Positions 54,802 to 64,000 of a DNA stretch of 64,000 bases are shown one piece after another (within the stretch, counting starts at the first letter, position 1; each line of letters begins with the position of its first letter). The notes under the pieces are model-generated. The model did not search any database, was not told where the DNA came from, and saw only the letters and a list, made by a program, of their open reading frames with translations. The stretch is from Saccharopolyspora gloriosae (GTDB taxonomy: Bacteria; Actinomycetota; Actinomycetes; Mycobacteriales; Pseudonocardiaceae). The position numbers were made by a program, and so were the translations under genes. Where the stretch lies: assembly GCF_014203325.1 (NCBI RefSeq), contig NZ_JACHIV010000001.1, positions 3,225,501 to 3,289,500 of the forward strand. The letters run 5' to 3'.

Positions 54802-55338
54802 TCAGCTGCGGTGGTGCACCCCTGCGCCGGCGAGGTGGTAATCGCGCATCACGTGCAGCATCGCGTGCAACGAGAGGTCGCCGGGGCGGCGCAGGCGGGC
54901 CTTCTCGGACGCGCACAGCGCGGTCGCCGGATTCATGCCCAGCGCGCGCATCCAGCCGACGAAATCCGGGTGCGGCATCGTGCCCTCGGCGGCGTTCGGG
55001 CTCAGCTCCAGCACGGCCTCCAGCACCGGCAGCAGCATCCGGTTGAACGCCGCCTCGCCCTGCTCGAACAGGAGGTCTTCGCAGGCCTGGTGGAAGCGGT
55101 CGCGACTGATCTCCGCCCCGGCCCCGGCCACGAGCGCGATCTGCTCGAACAACCAGCACAGCGAATTGCGCAATCGGCTGGTGTCCATCGTGGACCCCGA
55201 TCGGAATTCGCGGACCACACGATCCGCCTCCGCCGCCCAGTCGCACCGTTGCAGCACGGCGTTTCCCGTCAGGCTCCGCACCGCGGCTCGCGGCTCGCAT
55301 CTGCGACTCATCACGACATGCACCATGACCCCCACCAT
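54802..55338 (-). CDS. Calerythrin-like protein with degenerate EF-hands
   Basis: A 178-aa protein that aligns with the intact calerythrin 4 kb away over its whole length. Helix landmarks are shared: LFEQIALVAG with MFEYLAVEAG, EDLLFEQGEAAFNRML with QKLIFEDGEEQFNRVL, and DFVGWMRALGM with EFASWLNAVGV. The calcium-binding loops are lost: the third loop reads SPNAAEGTMPHP instead of DKNNDGKIDATE, and the first and fourth lack acidic ligands. It is thus probably a calcium-blind relative. ATG at 55338 with AGGGGGAGAA; 39 bp after the DUF4239 gene on the same strand. Confidence 0.75.
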   Translation of the reverse strand: MVGVMVHVVMSRRCEPRAAVRSLTGNAVLQRCDWAAEADRVVREFRSGSTMDTSRLRNSLCWLFEQIALVAGAGAEISRDRFHQACEDLLFEQGEAAFNRMLLPVLEAVLELSPNAAEGTMPHPDFVGWMRALGMNPATALCASEKARLRRPGDLSLHAMLHVMRDYHLAGAGVHHRS

Positions 55339-56154: not shown

Positions 56155-56585
56155 GAGAAGTCCGTTCCTGACGGCACGACCGGGCGAGGTCGATTTGTGC
56201 TGTGCGATGACCGGGACCGGGCCGCGCGAAATGGCGCGCCCGAAGGGGAACGAATCCGGAGTTCGGCTGCTATCTCCGGTCCGCCGCGAAGAACCCTACC
56301 CGCCACGCTGCGTTAAAAGGAGGAACTTTCCAAGCGTCAGGCGCAAAATTCACCGAATAGGGTGATCTTGAACGATTCCCGAAACGGATAACTCATCTCG
56401 ACCATTCCGCGCAGTTCGACAAAATTCCCACATCTCCGCTGGTCAGCAGGCCAATTAGGCCAATGTGGACTTTCCACGAAGAGCACTCGGGGTTCGAATT
56501 CGCAGTGCTACGGTTTTCCCGGCCGCCGATAAGGACCTGCCGTCTCCGGTCATTCCGCTGCTTTCCACGTGCCCGAGGGGGTGAG
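56155..56585. promoter_or_regulatory. Divergent promoter region
   Basis: A 431-bp gap, AT-richer than its surroundings between ~56330 and 56530, with a GGCC-AATTA-GGCC palindrome near 56450. No gene is seen; likely promoters for the DUF4239 and cell-surface genes. Confidence 0.35.
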
Positions 56586-57596
56586 ATGTTGCGGAAGCAA
56601 TCCATTCTGAACCGATGCGCCCCGCGCCGAGCGGCCGCACGGCGTTCCGCCGTGCTGTCGTGCTGCGGGCTGGCCCTGCTGATCCCGCTGCTGACGTCCG
56701 CGTACGTCCCGCCGCACCCGGGCGCTCCGGCGCCCGGAGAGCACGTCGGAGAGCACGAGAGCGGGTGGCCGATCGAGCACCCCTCGCTGTCGCTGCGCAC
56801 CGAGGTCGCGCCCGCCGTCGCGCGGCCCGGTGACCCGATCACGCAGACCGCCGTCGTCGGCAACACCGGCGACACCACGCTCGCCGGTGTCGTCGTGACC
56901 CTGGATTCCGGCCCCTGCCACGAAGTTCTCGGCCACCTCCGGCCCGGAGCGACGGAAACCGCCTCGTGCTCCGGTACGGCGCCCGCGCACGGCCGGGTGT
57001 CGGCGCGCGCGGTAGGCATGAGCCACGGCGGCCTGCCCGTCGTCGAGCGCGCCACCGCGGAGATCGCCGAATCACCGCCCGAGCCCGAACCGCCCGCACC
57101 GAAACGGCCCTCGGTCGCGCTGGAGATCCTGCCCGCGCGTGCCGGATCGGTGCCGGTGCCGGTGCGCAACACCTCGACCGTCCCGCTGCTGGGAGTCGAG
57201 GTCACCGGCGAGCCGCCCGCGTGCCGGCGCACGCTCGGCACGCTGGAACCGGGTCGCTCGGTCACCTACACCTGCCGGGCGGCTCCCGGCGAGACGGTGC
57301 GCCTCGCGGTCTCCGCCCGGTCGCTGGCGGGCGAGGTCACCGCCGCCGACGCACTGGTCGTGCCCCCGCTGCCCCCTGCGCCGCCTGCCGCCGAACCGTC
57401 CCCGCCCGCCGAACGGCCGCCACCGGCGGCGCGTCCGGTCCCGCCGCCGCTCGACGAGACCCGGGTGGAGCTCGCGGATTCCGGCGGGCCGCGCGAATCC
57501 CCCGCCCAGACCGCCGGATTCATCGCGGTCCTCGGCGTGCTCGTGATGATGGTCAGCGTCGGCGCGCTGTCGTCGGCGACCCGAGCGGGCCGGTGA
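56586..57596 (+). CDS. Cell-surface protein with repeat domains and Pro-rich stalk
   Basis: A 336-aa exported protein: basic N-terminus, hydrophobic signal (AVLSCCGLALLIPLLTSAY, about 22-40), and two tandem beta-sandwich modules of DUF11/CARDB character. Each module holds a G-N-T/N-T-S motif and paired Cys (GPCHEVLGHLRPGATETASC, then PPACRRTLGTLEPGRSVTYT). A Pro/Ala-rich stalk (~270-300) and a C-terminal TM (about 311-332) with a short basic tail follow. This is a wall-spanning anchored display protein. ATG at 56586 has GAGGGGG 3-4 nt before. Function unknown. Confidence 0.72.
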   Translation: MLRKQSILNRCAPRRAAARRSAVLSCCGLALLIPLLTSAYVPPHPGAPAPGEHVGEHESGWPIEHPSLSLRTEVAPAVARPGDPITQTAVVGNTGDTTLAGVVVTLDSGPCHEVLGHLRPGATETASCSGTAPAHGRVSARAVGMSHGGLPVVERATAEIAESPPEPEPPAPKRPSVALEILPARAGSVPVPVRNTSTVPLLGVEVTGEPPACRRTLGTLEPGRSVTYTCRAAPGETVRLAVSARSLAGEVTAADALVVPPLPPAPPAAEPSPPAERPPPAARPVPPPLDETRVELADSGGPRESPAQTAGFIAVLGVLVMMVSVGALSSATRAGR

Positions 57597-57702: not shown

Positions 57703-58011
57703 ATGCGCTCGACCGCACGTCTACTGGTGGCCGCGACGGCCGCGATCCTGGCCGCCGGCTTCCCCGCGGCCACGGCGGCCGCCGCCTCCAGCGGCCAAGT
57801 CCTGATCTTCAGCACCGAGCTCGAACCGGTGACGACCTACGACACGCCGAACGGGTGCTACCGGGCCCCCCTCACCGCGCACGTGCTGATCAACGAGACG
57901 GACTCGCCCGTTCGCATCTACGGCGATCCGTTCTGCATGACGGCGTCCCTCGTCGTCGCCCCCGGCCACGGAGCGCACGTGCCCCCGGGCACCGGCAGCT
58001 TCCAGGCCTGA
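57703..58011 (+). CDS. Small secreted protein
   Basis: A 102-aa protein with a typical Sec signal peptide (MRSTARLLVAATAAILAAGF, cleavage after AAA, about 28). The mature ~74-aa domain has two Cys (NGCYRAP, DPFCMTAS). I recognise no family. AGGA precedes the ATG at about 8 nt. It lies between the surface-protein gene and the nucleotide-sugar dehydrogenase gene, 106 bp after the former. Confidence 0.65.
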   Translation: MRSTARLLVAATAAILAAGFPAATAAAASSGQVLIFSTELEPVTTYDTPNGCYRAPLTAHVLINETDSPVRIYGDPFCMTASLVVAPGHGAHVPPGTGSFQA

Positions 58012-58058: not shown

Positions 58059-59321
58059 ATGATGTCTGTTGATCTCGTGGTGGTCGGACTCGGCTACGTC
58101 GGCCTGCCGCTGGCGTCCGCCGCCTGCTCCGCAGGCGTGACCACGGTCGGGCTGGACGTGTCCGACGAGGTCGTGGCCGGGTTGAACGCGGGCCGGTCCC
58201 ACGTCGGGGACGTGCCGGAGGCGGCCGTGGCCGAGATGGTCGCCGCCGGGTTCACCGCGACCACCGACCCGGCGGTGCTGGCCACCGCGGACACCGTGGT
58301 GCTCTGCGTGCCCACCGGTCTGTCCGCCTCCGGCGATCCGGACCTGAGCGCCGTGCGGGCCGCGGCCGGGACCGTCGCCGCCCGGCTGCGCGCCGGAACC
58401 CTGGTGGTCCTGGAGTCCACCAGTCATCCCGGCACCACCGAGGAGGTCGTGCGGCCGATCCTCGAACGGGGCAGCGGACTGCGCGTCGGCGAGGACTTCC
58501 ACCTGGTGTACTCGCCGGAGCGGATCGATCCGGGCAACGAGCGGTTCTCGATGCACAACACCCCGAAAATCATCAGCGGTTGCACCCCGCTGTGCGCCAA
58601 GTACGGCGTCGCCTTCTACGGCCGGTTCGTCGAATCCCTCGTGGTCTCCCGAGGGACCAGGGAGGCCGAGATGGCGAAGCTCCTGGAGAACAGCTACCGG
58701 TACGTCAACATCGCGCTGGTGAACGAGGTCGCGCTGTTCTGCGACCGGATGGGCATCGACGTGTGGGACGTGCTGCACTGCGCGGGAACCAAGCCCTTCG
58801 GGTTCGCGCCGTTCCAGCCGGGCCCCGGCGTCGGCGGCCACTGCATTCCGATCGACCCGCGCTACCTGGAGAGCAAGGCGCGCAGCGCCGGGTTCACCTT
58901 CGACACGTTGTCGGCCGCTCGCGCCGTGAACGAACGCATGCCTTCGCACGTGGTGCTGCGGGCGGCCGCGCTGCTCGCCGAGCGGGGCGCGGCGCTCGCG
59001 GGTTCGCGGGTCCTGCTGCTGGGCGTGGCCTACAAGCCCGACGTCGCCGACACCCGCGAGTCGCCCGCGTACCCGATCGCCCGCGAACTGCTCGCCCGCG
59101 GCGCCCGCGTCTCGTTTCACGACCCGGAGGTCGCCGAGTTCGAAGTGGACGGTCGCCCGATCCGCAAGGAGCACCCGCTCCCGGAGGCGTTGGCAGACGC
59201 GGATCTCGTCGTCCTGCTGCAGGACCACTCCTGCTACGACCTCGTCGAGATCTCCAGCACTGGTCGCGCGCTGCTGGACACCCGAGGGAAGTCCGCCGGT
59301 GGCTCGGTGACGCTGCTCTGA
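58059..59321 (+). CDS. Nucleotide-sugar dehydrogenase (UDP-ManNAc/UDP-GlcNAc type)
   Basis: A 420-aa UDP-sugar dehydrogenase: NAD motif LVVVGLGYVGLPLASAA, STSHPGTTEEV, VYSPERIDPGN, EMAKLLENSYRYVNIALVNE, and the catalytic Cys in GPGVGGHCIPIDPRY. The IPIDPRY end of that motif fits the UDP-ManNAc/UDP-GlcNAc 6-dehydrogenase branch (WecC/TviB/WbpA-like) rather than UDP-glucose dehydrogenase. It would give a UDP-aminouronic acid for a surface glycan. ATG at 58059 has GAGGAG 4 nt upstream. No glycosyltransferase genes are nearby. Confidence 0.82.
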   Translation: MMSVDLVVVGLGYVGLPLASAACSAGVTTVGLDVSDEVVAGLNAGRSHVGDVPEAAVAEMVAAGFTATTDPAVLATADTVVLCVPTGLSASGDPDLSAVRAAAGTVAARLRAGTLVVLESTSHPGTTEEVVRPILERGSGLRVGEDFHLVYSPERIDPGNERFSMHNTPKIISGCTPLCAKYGVAFYGRFVESLVVSRGTREAEMAKLLENSYRYVNIALVNEVALFCDRMGIDVWDVLHCAGTKPFGFAPFQPGPGVGGHCIPIDPRYLESKARSAGFTFDTLSAARAVNERMPSHVVLRAAALLAERGAALAGSRVLLLGVAYKPDVADTRESPAYPIARELLARGARVSFHDPEVAEFEVDGRPIRKEHPLPEALADADLVVLLQDHSCYDLVEISSTGRALLDTRGKSAGGSVTLL

Positions 59322-59465
59322 CCCACCCCCGCCCCGGCGCGTCGGTGCACCCCGGCGCACCGGAACCGATCTTGCGCGAGGACTTCGGTCTCGCGCGGGC
59401 CGTCCGCTGCCGTCCGGTCGCGGGCGGAGCACCATTTCACCAACGAATCATCAAGGAGGATGGCC

Positions 59466-59999
59466 ATGACCGCGGCTATCGCTAACGACCGCCTGCGCAA
59501 GCGCTTCGCCAAGTGGGACTTGGACGGCAGTGGCCGTCTGGAGCGCTCGGACTTCGAGAAGGAAGCCGTGCAGATCGCCCAGGCCTTCGGCACGCAGGTC
59601 GACAGCGCCGAGGCCCAGTCGGTCCAGGACGCGCTCACCGGCATGTTCGAGTACCTGGCCGTCGAGGCCGGGACCACGGCCGGCGGTTCGCTCTCGGAGG
59701 ACGACTTCCTGCGCGTCACCCAGAAGCTGATCTTCGAGGACGGCGAGGAGCAGTTCAACCGCGTGCTCGGCCCGCTGGTGCGCAGCATCGTCGGCCTGTG
59801 CGACAAGAACAACGACGGCAAGATCGACGCGACGGAGTTCGCCTCCTGGCTCAACGCCGTCGGCGTCGACCACTCGCAGGCCGCGGAGGCGTTCGTCAAC
59901 GTGGACACCGACGCCAACGGTGAGCTCACCGTGGACGAGCTGCTCGCCGCCGTGCGCAACTTCCACTTCGGTCGGCTGGACGTCGAACTGCTGGGCTGA
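59466..59999 (+). CDS. Calerythrin, EF-hand calcium-binding protein
   Basis: A 177-aa EF-hand protein nearly identical in length and pattern to Saccharopolyspora erythraea calerythrin. Loops: DLDGSGRLERSD (18-29), DKNNDGKIDATE (113-124) and DTDANGELTVDE (147-158). The second site (AGTTAGGSLSED, 68-79) is degenerate, as in the known protein, so it binds three calcium ions. It ends HFGRLDVELLG. Calerythrin resembles sarcoplasmic calcium-binding proteins and probably buffers or senses cytosolic calcium. ATG at 59466 follows AAGGAGGA by 5 nt. A paralogue lacking the ligands lies at 54802-55338. Confidence 0.92.
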   Translation: MTAAIANDRLRKRFAKWDLDGSGRLERSDFEKEAVQIAQAFGTQVDSAEAQSVQDALTGMFEYLAVEAGTTAGGSLSEDDFLRVTQKLIFEDGEEQFNRVLGPLVRSIVGLCDKNNDGKIDATEFASWLNAVGVDHSQAAEAFVNVDTDANGELTVDELLAAVRNFHFGRLDVELLG

Positions 60000-60014: not shown

Positions 60015-60057
60015 CGAACGGCCGGTGACCTTCCCCCAGAAGGTCACCGGCCGTTCG
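60015..60057. terminator. Bidirectional terminator
   Basis: A perfect 19-bp stem (60015-60033 with 60039-60057) and 5-nt loop between convergent genes, the strongest terminator in the window. Confidence 0.8.
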
Positions 60058-60069
60058 GCTGCGGCGGCG

Positions 60070-60486
60070 TCAGACGCGGACGGACGCCTGGTCGAAGGCG
60101 AGGGCCGTTTCCGGTTCCAGGCCGATCTCCTCGCCGGTGCACGGGATCGAGGTCCGCACGAGGATGTTGTAGTGGTTCGGGTAGTGGCAGGCGTCGAAGC
60201 CGAGCACGGTGCCCACCAGCCGGTCTCCGATCCGGAGCTCGTCGCCGCGGTCGAGCACCCCGGCGCTGCCGAACTCGGCGAAGCCGAGGAACCCGACCCG
60301 GTCGATGCGGGACCCGGTGGCGGTGTCGCCGTGGTCGGTGGTGACCAGCTCGTGCACCTCGCCCGCCCTGATGCAGCGGCTCAGGTGCGGTTCGAGGGAC
60401 ATGCCCCGGTCATCCCGGCGGTGCCGGAGCACCTTCACGACGGTGGCCCGCAGGCCCCGCTTGCGCCCGTCTTCGTGCGGGTTCAT
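60070..60486 (-). CDS. Unknown 138-aa protein
   Basis: A 138-aa protein with conserved-looking blocks: MNPHEDGRKRGLRATVVKVL, RAGEVHELVTTDHGD, GFLGFAEFGSAGVLDRGDEL and VLGFDACHYPNHYNILV. The His/Cys pattern in the last block could bind a metal or act in catalysis. I recall similar unnamed proteins in actinomycete clusters but cannot give a family number with confidence. ATG overlaps the stop of the Gfo/Idh gene (ATGA), so it is the last gene of a coupled operon. Confidence 0.6.
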   Translation of the reverse strand: MNPHEDGRKRGLRATVVKVLRHRRDDRGMSLEPHLSRCIRAGEVHELVTTDHGDTATGSRIDRVGFLGFAEFGSAGVLDRGDELRIGDRLVGTVLGFDACHYPNHYNILVRTSIPCTGEEIGLEPETALAFDQASVRV

Positions 60487-61442
60487 GACAGGCCCTCCCA
60501 TTCCGGTGCGGTGTCGAGGAATTCGGTGCGGTAGACCGCGTCGACCAGTTCCAGCGCGGCGAGCCCGCCGTCGGGCCGCCGGGCCGCGCCCGCGCCGCCC
60601 GCGTCGAGCACCGTCGCGAAGTCCTCCAAGATTCCGACGTACTCGTGCCACAGCGAGGCCTTGAACCCGCGGTGCCCGTGCAGCACGTCCGCGCGGTGCA
60701 CGGTGCCGTCGGCGCAGCGGACCTCGACGTCCTTGGTCTCGCCCGGGTGGGACCAGTCGAGTTCGACGACGGCGGGCACGCCGGTGGCGGACCGCAGTCC
60801 GAGCACGGCCTGCCGGTCGATCCCGTGCTCGTCCCTGACCACGGACACCCCGGTCGGTTCGACGTCGCCGAGGAACAACCGCACCAGGTCGAAGGCGTTC
60901 GGTCCGTTGTCGGCGACGCAGCCACCGCCGCAGCGGTCCGGGTCGAGGTACCAGGTGTCGCCGCCGATGTGCTCCTCGATGCGCTCCAGGTAGCGCACCA
61001 CCAGCGATTCGACCGGACCGCGCTCGCGCAGTTCGTCGACCAACCGCAGCACGTTGTCGTTGTAGCGGCGGTGGAACGCGGTGAACAGCGGGGTTCGCTC
61101 GGTGGCGAGTTCGGTGAGCGCGCGGGCCTCGTCCAGGTCGATGCCGAGGGGTTTCTCCACGCACACCGGCACTCCCGCCAGCAGCGCGTCGCGGCAGATC
61201 CGGGCGTGCACGTCGTTGGGCACCACGACGATCACGGCGTCCAGCGCGACGGTGGCGAGCAGGTCGCGGTGGTCGAGGAAACCGGGTACGTGCCCGCGGT
61301 GCACGGCCAGCGCCGAGCGGCGCACGTCGCACACGGCGACGAGTTCCCAACCGGGGAGCTCGTCGATCGCGGCCAGGTAGTACTTCGAGATCGTGCCGAG
61401 GCCGATCACGGCGACGCGGCGCGCGGTCTCCGGGTTCGTCAT
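60483..61442 (-). CDS. Gfo/Idh/MocA-family oxidoreductase
   Basis: A 319-aa NAD(P)-dependent oxidoreductase: Rossmann motif VAVIGLGTISKYYLAAI, VVVPNDVHARIC, the catalytic-lysine motif CVEKPLGIDLDEA (EKP) and the alpha/beta C-terminal domain (GGGCVADNGPNAFDLVRLFL, with the substrate-binding D/N/H region). Substrates are usually sugars, inositols or 2-hydroxyacid-type intermediates. Overlaps by 4 nt both its upstream and downstream neighbours. In this operon it could reduce or oxidise the product of the Ldh-type enzyme. Confidence 0.82.
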   Translation of the reverse strand: MTNPETARRVAVIGLGTISKYYLAAIDELPGWELVAVCDVRRSALAVHRGHVPGFLDHRDLLATVALDAVIVVVPNDVHARICRDALLAGVPVCVEKPLGIDLDEARALTELATERTPLFTAFHRRYNDNVLRLVDELRERGPVESLVVRYLERIEEHIGGDTWYLDPDRCGGGCVADNGPNAFDLVRLFLGDVEPTGVSVVRDEHGIDRQAVLGLRSATGVPAVVELDWSHPGETKDVEVRCADGTVHRADVLHGHRGFKASLWHEYVGILEDFATVLDAGGAGAARRPDGGLAALELVDAVYRTEFLDTAPEWEGLS

Positions 61443-62560
61443 CGCGCACCTCCGCCGGTGTCGGGCAGGCCGAGCTCGACCAGTTCCCGGTGCAGGCGCG
61501 GCCGCAGCGGCACCCCGTCCCGGCGACGGCGGGCGGCCAGTTCCGCCTCGTGCCAGCCGGGGTAGCGGACCGCGTCGCCGGAGGCGGCGGGCGGGCAGTC
61601 CAGCAGCGTGCCGAACAGGCTGCGCGCGTCGGCGGCGAACTCCCCTTCCGGGCGCAGCAGGTCCGGGGCTATCGCCAGCACGAAGTAGCCGATGTCGTCG
61701 TCGCGGCCGTGCGGTCCGCCGTCGCCGTGCAGCGCCTCCGGGGCAGGGCCGAGCCCGGCTCCCGGCAGCAGCGCGGACAGCAGTTCTACGACGAGGCCGA
61801 GCCCGAACCCCTTGTGGGAGCCGGTGTCCGGGTCGCCGCCGAGCCAGCGCAGGTGCGCGGTGCCCCGGTCGAACTCCGCCGGGTCGGTGACCGCGGCGCC
61901 GGTGTCGTCGGTCAGCCAGCCCGCCGGCACGCGCTCACCGCTGCTCGCCGCGACGCGCACCTTCCCGGTGGGTACGACGGTGGTGCTCATGTCGAGGACG
62001 AACGGGTGGTCGTCGAGGGCGGGAGCGGCGACGCTGAGCGGGTTGGTGCCCAGCATCGTCAGCGCGCCCAGCGGCGGGCGGGCGATGCGCTGGCCGCCGC
62101 AGTTGCTCGCGACGATCCCGATCATGCCGCGGTCGGCGACGCGGGCGGCGTGGAACCCGGCGCAGCCGAAGTGCGTGCCGCCCCGTACCGACACCATTCC
62201 GATGCCGTGCTCGGCGGCGCGTTCCGCGGCGGAGTCCGCGGCTTCGGCCGCGGCCCACAACCCGAGCGCGCGGCGGGCGTCCACGACGGCGCACGCGCCC
62301 AGGTCGGTCAGCGCGCGGAGCTGGGCGGCGGGATCGATCCGCCCGGACTTCAGCAACGGCAGGTACAACCGGGCGAGGTTGAACAGGCCGTGCGAGTCGA
62401 ATCCGCACAGATCGCCGTAGCACAGCGCGTCGGCCGCGAGGTGCGCTCGGCGATCAGGTATCCCGTGCTCGGCGAACACGCGCGCGGTGAACGCGTGCAG
62501 GTCCGCGTGGGACACCGTCGTTCGATCCCCGGAGTGTGCGATCTCCGGCAGCAGTGTCAT
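61439..62560 (-). CDS. Ldh/malate dehydrogenase-type (LDH2/YlbC) oxidoreductase
   Basis: A 373-aa member of the malate/L-lactate/ureidoglycolate dehydrogenase family (the NAD-binding family distinct from classical LDH). CYGDLCGFDSHGLFNLARLY carries the catalytic-His DSHG, and GMVSVRGGTHFGCAGFHAAR, LTMLGTNPLSVAAPA, FVLDMSTTVVPTGKV and GDPDTGSHKGFGLGLVVELL fit the rest. It oxidises a 2-hydroxyacid or reduces an imine/2-oxoacid (the family includes delta1-piperideine-2-carboxylate reductases). ATG overlaps the M20 peptidase stop (TGATG). Confidence 0.82.
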   Translation of the reverse strand: MTLLPEIAHSGDRTTVSHADLHAFTARVFAEHGIPDRRAHLAADALCYGDLCGFDSHGLFNLARLYLPLLKSGRIDPAAQLRALTDLGACAVVDARRALGLWAAAEAADSAAERAAEHGIGMVSVRGGTHFGCAGFHAARVADRGMIGIVASNCGGQRIARPPLGALTMLGTNPLSVAAPALDDHPFVLDMSTTVVPTGKVRVAASSGERVPAGWLTDDTGAAVTDPAEFDRGTAHLRWLGGDPDTGSHKGFGLGLVVELLSALLPGAGLGPAPEALHGDGGPHGRDDDIGYFVLAIAPDLLRPEGEFAADARSLFGTLLDCPPAASGDAVRYPGWHEAELAARRRRDGVPLRPRLHRELVELGLPDTGGGAR

Positions 62561-63855
62561 CAGGTGGTCTCCTCCCCGGCACCCCGGTGGTGCCGCTCGG
62601 TGAACTCGGTGAGCAACGACGCCACCGCGCGGGCGAAGGCCCGCAGTTCGGCGACGTCGGCGTATTCGCCTTCGGCGTGGGCGTGGTTGGTCTCCAGCGA
62701 ACCCGGCCCCAGCACGGCCGTGGCGGTGTCCGGGACGCCGTGCATCCAGATGGCGTCGCAGGTGAACGCGGGCAGCTCGTCCGGCCAGCGGGCGAGGCCG
62801 GCGGCGGCGAACAGCTCCCGCGCCCAGGCGGGCGAGTCGTCCAGGCAGGGCAGGCCGCGCTTGAGCCAGTCGACGTGCACGATCTCGGCGGCGTCGGCGG
62901 CGGTGCGGGCGAATTCCCTGGTGCGACCGAAGATCTCGGTGAACTCGCGCACCCCGGAGCGCACCGCCGCCCGCAGCGCCCGCTCGGCCTCGGCTCCTTC
63001 CGCCGCGGTGGCGTAGGACAGGTTCAGCAGCAGGTTCCCGCTGCCGTAGACCCGGTTGTGCTGCTCGCCCGTGCGCACCCCGGCGACGCAACACCGGCCC
63101 GGCCGCTCCCGCGGGTCGAGGTGGCGCGCCAGGTGCTGCGCGAGGAAGCCCAGCAGCACCGTCGCGTTGTGCCCGGCCGAGGGTTCGTCGTCGATGGCAC
63201 CGCGGCCGTCGACCCGGACCCGCGCGGTCATCGAGGCGGTCGCCCGCGGCAAGTACCGCAGTCCGGTGGGTTCGCAGAACACGTTGAGGCGCCCGAAGAA
63301 TCCGGCTTCGACCAGCGGCCGGGTGCCGTAGGTGCCCATCGCGCCGCCCTCCTCGCCGGAGACGATCTGCACCAGCACCCCGACGTCGCGCCCGAGCGCC
63401 GGATTCGCGGCGGCTGCCGTGCGGATGCCCGCCAGCAGCGCCACCGCGGGTCCCTTCGCGTCGATCGACCCGCGCCCGGTGATCCGTTCCGCGGAGCACG
63501 TGACGGGTTCGATCCCGGCCACCGTGTCCAGGTGGGCGTTGAACATGACCGTGCGCTCCGGCGGCAGCTCCGGGCCGAGCCGCAGCACCAGGCTCGGCTG
63601 CTCGGCCAGGAAGTCCGCGCTACCCGCCGCGGCCCGGACGGTGCGGGGCACGTCGTCGCGGTCCAGGACCGCCGGGTCGGGCGCGGCGTGGTGCGCGGTG
63701 CGGAACCCGATCGCCGCCGCCGCTCGGGCGTAGGCGCGCTGCGCCTGCCACATCCGAGCGGGCGGCTCCACCGATTCCAGCGGGTTCACCGTCGGCAGCA
63801 GCAACAGGTCCCGCAGCAGCTCCCGATCCGCCGCGCCGAACGGGTCGGCGGACAT
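62560..63855 (-). CDS. M20-family metallopeptidase/deacylase (ArgE/DapE-like)
   Basis: A 431-aa zinc-dependent amidohydrolase. It has metal ligands in FNAHLDTVAG, GRGSIDAKGP, VSGEEGGAMG (catalytic Glu-Glu) and FCEPTG, and the last in TNHAHAEGEYADV. Family enzymes cleave N-acyl amino acids or dipeptides. At 431 aa it is longer than ArgE/DapE (375-383) owing to insertions in the lid domain. In an operon with two dehydrogenases it may release an amino group after acyl-protected synthesis, or act in catabolism. Its ATG overlaps the upstream gene's stop (TGATG). Confidence 0.8.
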   Translation of the reverse strand: MSADPFGAADRELLRDLLLLPTVNPLESVEPPARMWQAQRAYARAAAAIGFRTAHHAAPDPAVLDRDDVPRTVRAAAGSADFLAEQPSLVLRLGPELPPERTVMFNAHLDTVAGIEPVTCSAERITGRGSIDAKGPAVALLAGIRTAAAANPALGRDVGVLVQIVSGEEGGAMGTYGTRPLVEAGFFGRLNVFCEPTGLRYLPRATASMTARVRVDGRGAIDDEPSAGHNATVLLGFLAQHLARHLDPRERPGRCCVAGVRTGEQHNRVYGSGNLLLNLSYATAAEGAEAERALRAAVRSGVREFTEIFGRTREFARTAADAAEIVHVDWLKRGLPCLDDSPAWARELFAAAGLARWPDELPAFTCDAIWMHGVPDTATAVLGPGSLETNHAHAEGEYADVAELRAFARAVASLLTEFTERHHRGAGEETT

Positions 63856-64000
63856 CAGGACCGGCCGCGTGCCGATGCCCCCGCCGCGTACGGCGCGAGC
63901 AGCTCCCCCAGCATCCGCTCCAGCGCCCGTCCGGCGTCGACGAACCGGTCGGCGGCGGAAGCATCGGCCTGCTCGCCGTCGTGCGGGCGGGCCACCAGGT
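63855..64000 (-). CDS. C-terminal end of an upstream operon gene (partial)
   Basis: On the minus strand a frame open at the window edge ends in TGA at 63857-63855, overlapping the M20 start. The visible 47 residues are Ala-rich and helical (FVDAGRALERMLGELLAPYA). No family can be assigned. The TGATG overlap shows that it belongs to the same operon. Confidence 0.55.
   Translation of the reverse strand, partial: LVARPHDGEQADASAADRFVDAGRALERMLGELLAPYAAGASARGRS

Follow-up and report, generated by a model that had tools for sequence, protein, structure and literature searches.

An operon ending in a DUF6917 gene

The window analysed here, a stretch of 64,000 nt from Saccharopolyspora gloriosae (contig NZ_JACHIV010000001.1, positions 3,225,501 to 3,289,500 of the forward strand), holds at its right end a minus-strand operon, the last gene of which codes for a protein of 138 amino acids (aa). 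An initial annotation had described a coupled run of genes at this place, consisting of an upstream gene of no recognised family, an M20 deacylase, an Ldh-type dehydrogenase, a Gfo/Idh oxidoreductase and the 138-aa protein, and had expected the other half of the set to lie outside the window. Both views were borne out. Five translationally coupled genes start or end within the window, the upstream gene being a TIM-barrel protein (AP_endonuc_2), and a sixth, for a second Gfo/Idh protein, is located beyond the edge. The order of transcription is GfoA, TIM-barrel, M20, Ldh_2, GfoB and the 138-aa protein (Table 1). At the five junctions the genes overlap by 11, 1, 1, 4 and 4 nt; the overlaps as such had been recognised correctly, but the size given for them, 4–5 nt, is right in only two of the five cases.

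Table 1. Features of the Saccharopolyspora gloriosae locus, in order of window positions
Feature	Position	Strand	Evidence
S11, small secreted protein, 102 aa, predicted betagamma-crystallin fold	57703..58011	+	model pLDDT 83
Nucleotide-sugar 6-dehydrogenase, UDP-ManNAc/UDP-GlcNAc dehydrogenase-like; start provisional	58074..59321	+	TIGR03026 411 bits, cut-off 189.8; PDB Cap5O E 1.3e-62
Calerythrin-family EF-hand protein, 179 aa	59460..59999	+	PDB 1NYA E 2e-71 over 4-179; EF-hand Pfam models
18-bp perfect inverted repeat, 5-nt loop	60016..60056 (arms 60016-60033, 60039-60056)	.	arms paired by eye
DUF6917 protein, 138 aa, last operon gene, predicted single beta-barrel domain	60070..60486	-	PF21891, alignment, AlphaFold2
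GfoB, Gfo/Idh/MocA oxidoreductase, 319 aa	60483..61442	-	PF01408 6e-22, PF22725 3e-11
Ldh_2 (malate/L-lactate dehydrogenase family) oxidoreductase, 373 aa	61439..62560	-	PF02615 8.5e-98
M20 metallohydrolase, 431 aa	62560..63855	-	PF01546 1e-16
TIM-barrel (AP_endonuc_2, xylose-isomerase-like), 3' end in window	63855..64000; whole gene 63855-64733 = L009:4355-5233	-	PF01261 6.4e-26
GfoA, divergent Gfo/Idh, coupled, outside window	64723-65763	-	sixth operon gene

To the right of the operon follows a divergent one with genes for two DegT-type proteins (DegT1 and DegT2, the latter with a provisional start codon), UbiA, a flavin adenine dinucleotide (FAD) amine oxidase, an AMP-ligase, a methyltransferase, a CaiB-type CoA-transferase (CoA_transf_3) and a second AMP-ligase; an AhpD-like protein, named from its sequence alone, ends this row. 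The nearest PDB relatives of both DegT enzymes are sugar aminotransferases (2oga, which we take to be DesV, 7b0d, WbpE and QdtB). Together with three convergent plus-strand genes to the left of DUF6917, for a UDP-sugar (uridine diphosphate sugar) dehydrogenase, calerythrin and S11, which usually accompany the operon, the cluster amounts to 15 or more genes. After the extension to the right, the genes called and scanned in this cluster (57703–76715) included neither a glycosyltransferase nor a carrier protein, an ATP-grasp enzyme or a transporter.

All six operon genes match protein families in profile searches. The residues expected for activity are, in M20 enzymes, the metal ligands, in the TIM-barrel family a Glu/Asp/His/Glu set and in UbiA several aspartates. 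In the M20 protein H108, D110, D132, E168, E169, E195 and H393 are kept at 97% or more; E147, D175, H201 and E243 are conserved in the TIM-barrel protein, as are D78, D79, D85 and D88 plus D220 and D224 in UbiA (Pfam, 62.8 bits vs. 34.2). Because of these family matches, the conserved expected residues and the preserved gene order (see below), the operon is more than a chance run of genes.

The 138-aa protein, which had been regarded as unrecognised, turned out to be a full-length member of DUF6917 (PF21891, 180.6 bits vs. a cut-off of 27, positions 2–126/127), a family with no described function, and our literature search found no paper naming it. In an alignment of 39 sequences the invariant residues include R27, R37, C38, H45, E46, D98, H101, P103 and H105, a pattern which suggests a catalytic or metal site. 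The AlphaFold2 model is an all-beta single domain with a mean predicted local distance difference test (pLDDT) score of 94. For this model Foldseek found nothing in the PDB or among viral models with an E value of 0.001 or better, and the best VIA Z was 4.0, tied between second-domain barrels of IF2/EF-Tu and the PTS IIA protein 2f9h. Such weak matches to a predicted model are no proof of a new fold. In four genomes (G463, G543, G553 and G460) the DUF6917 profile was matched in fragments only, which suggests decaying copies of the cluster. A distant DUF6917 protein (38% identity) is located on a plasmid of Thermomicrobium roseum (L043:11938–14185) beside a three-domain thiamine diphosphate (TPP) enzyme (TPP_enzyme_N/M/C) and a proline-racemase gene. 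A general TPP-enzyme partner for DUF6917 was considered and dropped, as the Thermomicrobium neighbour belongs to a different TPP family and a second, distant copy in L135 is a 27% match only.

Conservation and variants of the cluster

Two sets of loci, which share genomes, were compared: a family set of 96 further DUF6917 loci from the window's own family, and a named set made up of the best 80 of 229 relatives. Gene order was counted only where at least 6 kb were available upstream (93 family and 75 named loci); in L138 and L139, DUF6917 gave no match at 50 bits. All six genes stand on one strand in the order GfoA-TIM-M20-Ldh-GfoB-DUF in 84 of these 93 family loci and 71 of the 75 named ones. 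DegT1 is present in 86 of 95 family and 73 of 80 named loci, UbiA in 76 and 58, the amine oxidase in 76 and 57, the calerythrin-type EF-hand gene in 75 and 59, the UDP-sugar dehydrogenase in 83 and 38 and S11 in 69 and 45, respectively. For 20 loci the comparison was extended on the side of the amine oxidase, where the first AMP-ligase was found in 19, the methyltransferase in 18 and both the CoA-transferase and the second AMP-ligase in 14 each, one of these being cut off by the end of its contig. Outside the cluster genes the flanks vary between genera.

DUF6917 was found in 92 of 390 genomes when the window's own family was scanned, but a phylum-wide sample of 396 contained a single carrier, the window's own genome. 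Judged by the titles of the best 80 of 229 relatives, the protein occurs in 17 or more genera, including Saccharopolyspora, Amycolatopsis, Lentzea, Saccharothrix, Kutzneria, Actinomadura, Nocardiopsis, Streptomonospora, Streptacidiphilus and Streptomyces. The co-occurrence of the 138-aa protein was checked, as had been proposed initially: an M20 ortholog and DUF6917 are both present in 88 of the 390 genomes, M20 only in 4, DUF6917 only in 4 and neither in 294.

Nine of the 93 eligible family loci deviate from the order of the operon. One variant core (L126:828–18809) occurs with AICARFT, a carbamoyltransferase and proteins resembling radical-SAM enzymes and oxygenases, the last two named from sequence only. 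In another (L129:78–10234) a GfoA-DegT-DegT-TIM-M20-Ldh-GfoB/DUF operon comes directly after trpC-trpB-trpA, overlapping them by 4 nt, and here the core may supply an indole pathway. TIM-M20-GfoB-DUF is all that L128, L130 and L133 have, and in L132 DUF6917 stands alone, near a terpene synthase. Since these loci differ in their partners, what the operon itself makes may be a building block that is put to different uses.

Some relatives carry additional genes of the methylerythritol phosphate (MEP) pathway. On a plasmid of Streptomyces sp. NBC_00490 (L042:19989–22316) the operon ends in a DUF6917 domain fused to a full DXS, annotated as dxs only, and is followed by a 2-oxoacid:ferredoxin oxidoreductase and a ferredoxin. 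Separate genes for DXS, IspG (GcpE) and IspH (LytB) adjoin the operon in 7, 7 and 5 of the 80 named and in 3, 3 and 3 of the 95 family loci. In L058 their products exceed the curated cut-offs (DXS 547.6 vs. 465.95, GcpE 479 vs. 32 and LytB 221 vs. 24.5 bits). The fusion might be read as a sign that DUF6917 takes part in the chemistry of DXS; this idea was dropped, because the adjacent IspG and IspH genes of relatives make a supply of precursor the simpler explanation.

Calerythrin and the left flank

Judged by its sequence, the gene at 59460–59999 is a member of the calerythrin or sarcoplasmic calcium-binding type of EF-hand proteins; it has three strict EF loops (at residues 20, 115 and 149) and may bind calcium. 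Calerythrin of Saccharopolyspora erythraea itself (PDB 1NYA) is 100% identical over 176 residues to the EF-hand protein of genome G767 (L116:7442–7975), the gene of which is about 2.4 kb away from DUF6917 of the same genome. Throughout the 390 family genomes, 83 of the 100 listed calerythrin-type places, i.e. those scoring at least 134 bits with weaker EF-hand paralogs left out, have a DUF6917 gene no more than 20 kb away. By genome, both are present in 84, the EF-hand gene only in 10, DUF6917 only in 8 and neither in 288, numbers which shared ancestry inflates. Even where the order is rearranged, as in Nocardiopsis and Actinomadura loci, the calerythrin gene is still inside the row of cluster genes. 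Co-inheritance of the operon with calerythrin and, in some relatives, with MEP genes is observed, as are its gene content, order and conservation, its protein families and the expected residues. According to a review, calerythrin is apparently a calcium buffer or transporter only (PMC10574481), and our literature search found no link between calerythrin and a biosynthetic cluster.

Between the convergent calerythrin and DUF6917 genes sits the 18-bp inverted repeat, a probable two-way terminator by its sequence. S11 has no match in Pfam or NCBIfam. Among its top Foldseek rows betagamma-crystallins prevail, with probabilities of 0.99–1.00 at E values of 0.03–0.1 only, and the VIA Z reaches 8.2 (6.4–7.6 for crystallin chains); S11 is predicted to be a secreted protein of betagamma-crystallin fold. 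The canonical calcium motif of betagamma-crystallins is [ND][ND]xx[ST]S. None of 31 S11 sequences has it, so that S11 agrees with these proteins in fold but differs from them in lacking both this motif and a match to the sequence family.

Several further genes were seen on this side. A second calerythrin-like protein (54826–55314, minus strand, 33% identity) retains no strict EF loop and has no Pfam EF-hand match, and L085 also has a second EF-hand gene beside the cluster. Just left of S11 is the gene of a 377-aa protein (56463–57596, plus strand), which is probably anchored to the cell surface and matches DUF7507 weakly; in several Saccharopolyspora-type loci another gene family is regularly found at this place. 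In one genus (g240; L082:6850–7677 and relatives) a DUF3050 gene joins the calerythrin/S11 side.

A possible product and its alternatives

Taking the gene sets together, the operon is rather probably one half of a biosynthetic cluster, conserved among actinobacteria, whose product combines an isoprenoid with a polar part derived from an amino sugar. That the product is isoprenoid-derived is suggested by the additional MEP genes of some relatives and by UbiA, which most of the other loci have. For the polar part, the best comparison is WbpA-WbpB-WbpE, the UDP-N-acetylhexosamine (UDP-HexNAc) 6-dehydrogenase, 3-dehydrogenase and 3-aminotransferase steps of UDP-ManNAc3NAcA biosynthesis. The three enzyme families are alike: DegT1 resembles WbpE structures with an E value of 6e-68, the nucleotide-sugar dehydrogenase matches UDP-ManNAc dehydrogenases, and the best NCBIfam model for GfoB is a UDP-GlcNAc 3-dehydrogenase (68 bits, under the cut-off of 450), whereas its match to WbpB is weak (6e-5). 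The dehydrogenase exceeds the subfamily cut-off of TIGR03026 only, scoring 254.8 bits vs. 459 with the equivalog model of UDP-HexNAc 6-dehydrogenases (PRK11064). WbpD acetyltransferase and WbpI epimerase are not among the scanned cluster genes, and conversely M20, Ldh_2, the TIM-barrel protein, DUF6917 and UbiA have no counterpart in the Wbp pathway. The gene set would fit a WbpA-WbpB-WbpE-like start, but with every score under the equivalog cut-offs and the remaining Wbp enzymes missing, we do not assign it to the UDP-ManNAc3NAcA pathway.

In the scheme that we infer for substrates, order of steps and product, the UDP-sugar dehydrogenase would oxidise a UDP-HexNAc at C6, GfoB would form a 3-keto sugar and one of the DegT enzymes would transaminate it. 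M20 may then remove the N-acyl group and the TIM-barrel protein isomerise the freed sugar, while Ldh_2, GfoA and the second DegT enzyme could add another redox and amination step. DUF6917, whose gene is coupled to that of GfoB, would act somewhere in the sugar part. UbiA would prenylate the amino-sugar product, and amine oxidase, methyltransferase, AMP-ligases and CoA-transferase would be left for tailoring after prenylation.

Several observations weigh against this scheme. MEP genes are found in a minority of the loci only, and the window's own cluster is without them. UbiA and the amine oxidase are not near L126–L130 and L133, and in L061 a displaced set is found further out (L149); therefore prenylation may be outside the core of the cluster. 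With only 38 of 80 named loci having the UDP-sugar dehydrogenase, entry through a UDP-sugar does not apply to all loci, as far as the examined stretch shows. For a simple glycoside a glycosyltransferase would be required, and none was seen in the cluster. No enzyme of the window's cluster reaches an NCBIfam equivalog cut-off, Ldh_2 included, which makes the substrates guesses.

The UDP-HexNAc 6-dehydrogenase-like and 3-aminotransferase-like enzymes also resemble the sugar pathways of surface polysaccharides. Together with the wide conservation across several of the family's genera and the probably secreted neighbouring proteins, this would suit a structural component of the cell envelope, namely a glycolipid or lipid-linked amino sugar with a polyprenyl chain attached to the sugar by UbiA, and not a natural product that is secreted. 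We regard this as unlikely, though to be reckoned with: no glycosyltransferase, flippase or polymerase was seen in the cluster, its patchy presence (92 of 390 family genomes, one of 396 in the phylum sample) is unlike that of an essential envelope part, and AMP-ligases and CoA-transferase fit small-molecule tailoring. The variant loci give rise to another thought, partly compatible with the preferred one, namely that the six genes make a nitrogen-bearing building block for several unrelated pathways, prenylation by UbiA being its commonest use. The cores associated with tryptophan genes (L129) or with AICARFT and carbamoyltransferase (L126), those reduced to TIM-M20-GfoB-DUF and the lone DUF6917 near a terpene synthase speak for it; yet such variants are few (9 of 93 break the order), and decay or a chance neighbourhood may account for some of them, so that we consider a general building block improbable.

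The M20 and Ldh_2 families are often catabolic, and GfoB and the TIM-barrel protein weakly resemble IolG and IolE, with which they have the Gfo/Idh and TIM-barrel families in common. A catabolic operon for an N-acylated amino sugar, an inositol-type or an amino-acid compound is nevertheless very improbable. The scores for inositol catabolism are far under the curated cut-offs (65.6 vs. 355 bits for IolG, 33.5 vs. 290 for IolE), the partner genes differ, neither a sugar transporter nor a kinase or regulator was seen in the cluster, and UbiA, the DegT pair, the AMP-ligases and in some loci MEP genes are co-conserved. This also leaves the catabolism of an N-acyl compound, one of two functions envisaged in the initial annotation, without support; upstream, where genes of a common catabolic pathway might have been expected, there are DegT aminotransferases, UbiA, amine oxidase, AMP-ligases and the CoA-transferase instead. 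The other one, synthesis of an unusual amino acid, fits the full gene set less well than a prenylated amino-sugar-derived product does. In particular, biosynthesis of the LysW/ArgE type was rejected, as the best M20 score is 50.4 bits vs. 369 (38.1 vs. 163.1 for dapE-lys-deAc) and the genes scanned include no carrier protein or ATP-grasp ligase. An anti-phage function was likewise discarded (PADLOC, 0 matches for the six proteins scanned). What stands is the placement in a natural-product, i.e. specialised-metabolite, cluster, only that this cluster is not small as had been thought.

Within the preferred reading of a prenylated amino-sugar-derived product, a more specific version can be formulated, to which we give little credence as a whole. 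The cluster would then represent a class not recognised before. A UDP-N-acetylhexosaminuronate would be turned into a free, twice-aminated scaffold without a glycosyltransferase, DUF6917 would catalyse a new reaction, UbiA would prenylate the scaffold and calerythrin would be a dedicated calcium-responsive component. Possibly the scaffold is a nitrogen heterocycle, because a piperidine- or pyridine-2-carboxylate, like a hexuronate, contains six carbons.

No paper describing this gene combination was found by titles and abstracts, a search which did not cover most subscription journals and so leaves novelty unproven; the cluster is apparently undescribed so far. It is large, lacks a polyketide synthase or nonribosomal peptide synthetase core and is shared by many soil actinomycetes, its 17 or more genera comprising such well-studied ones as Saccharopolyspora and Amycolatopsis; DUF6917 provides a search handle for it. 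Calerythrin, for decades a structure without a pathway, is now placed in a testable biological context. If it is indeed a calcium-responsive component of the cluster, this would give a physiological role to the first EF-hand protein described in prokaryotes.

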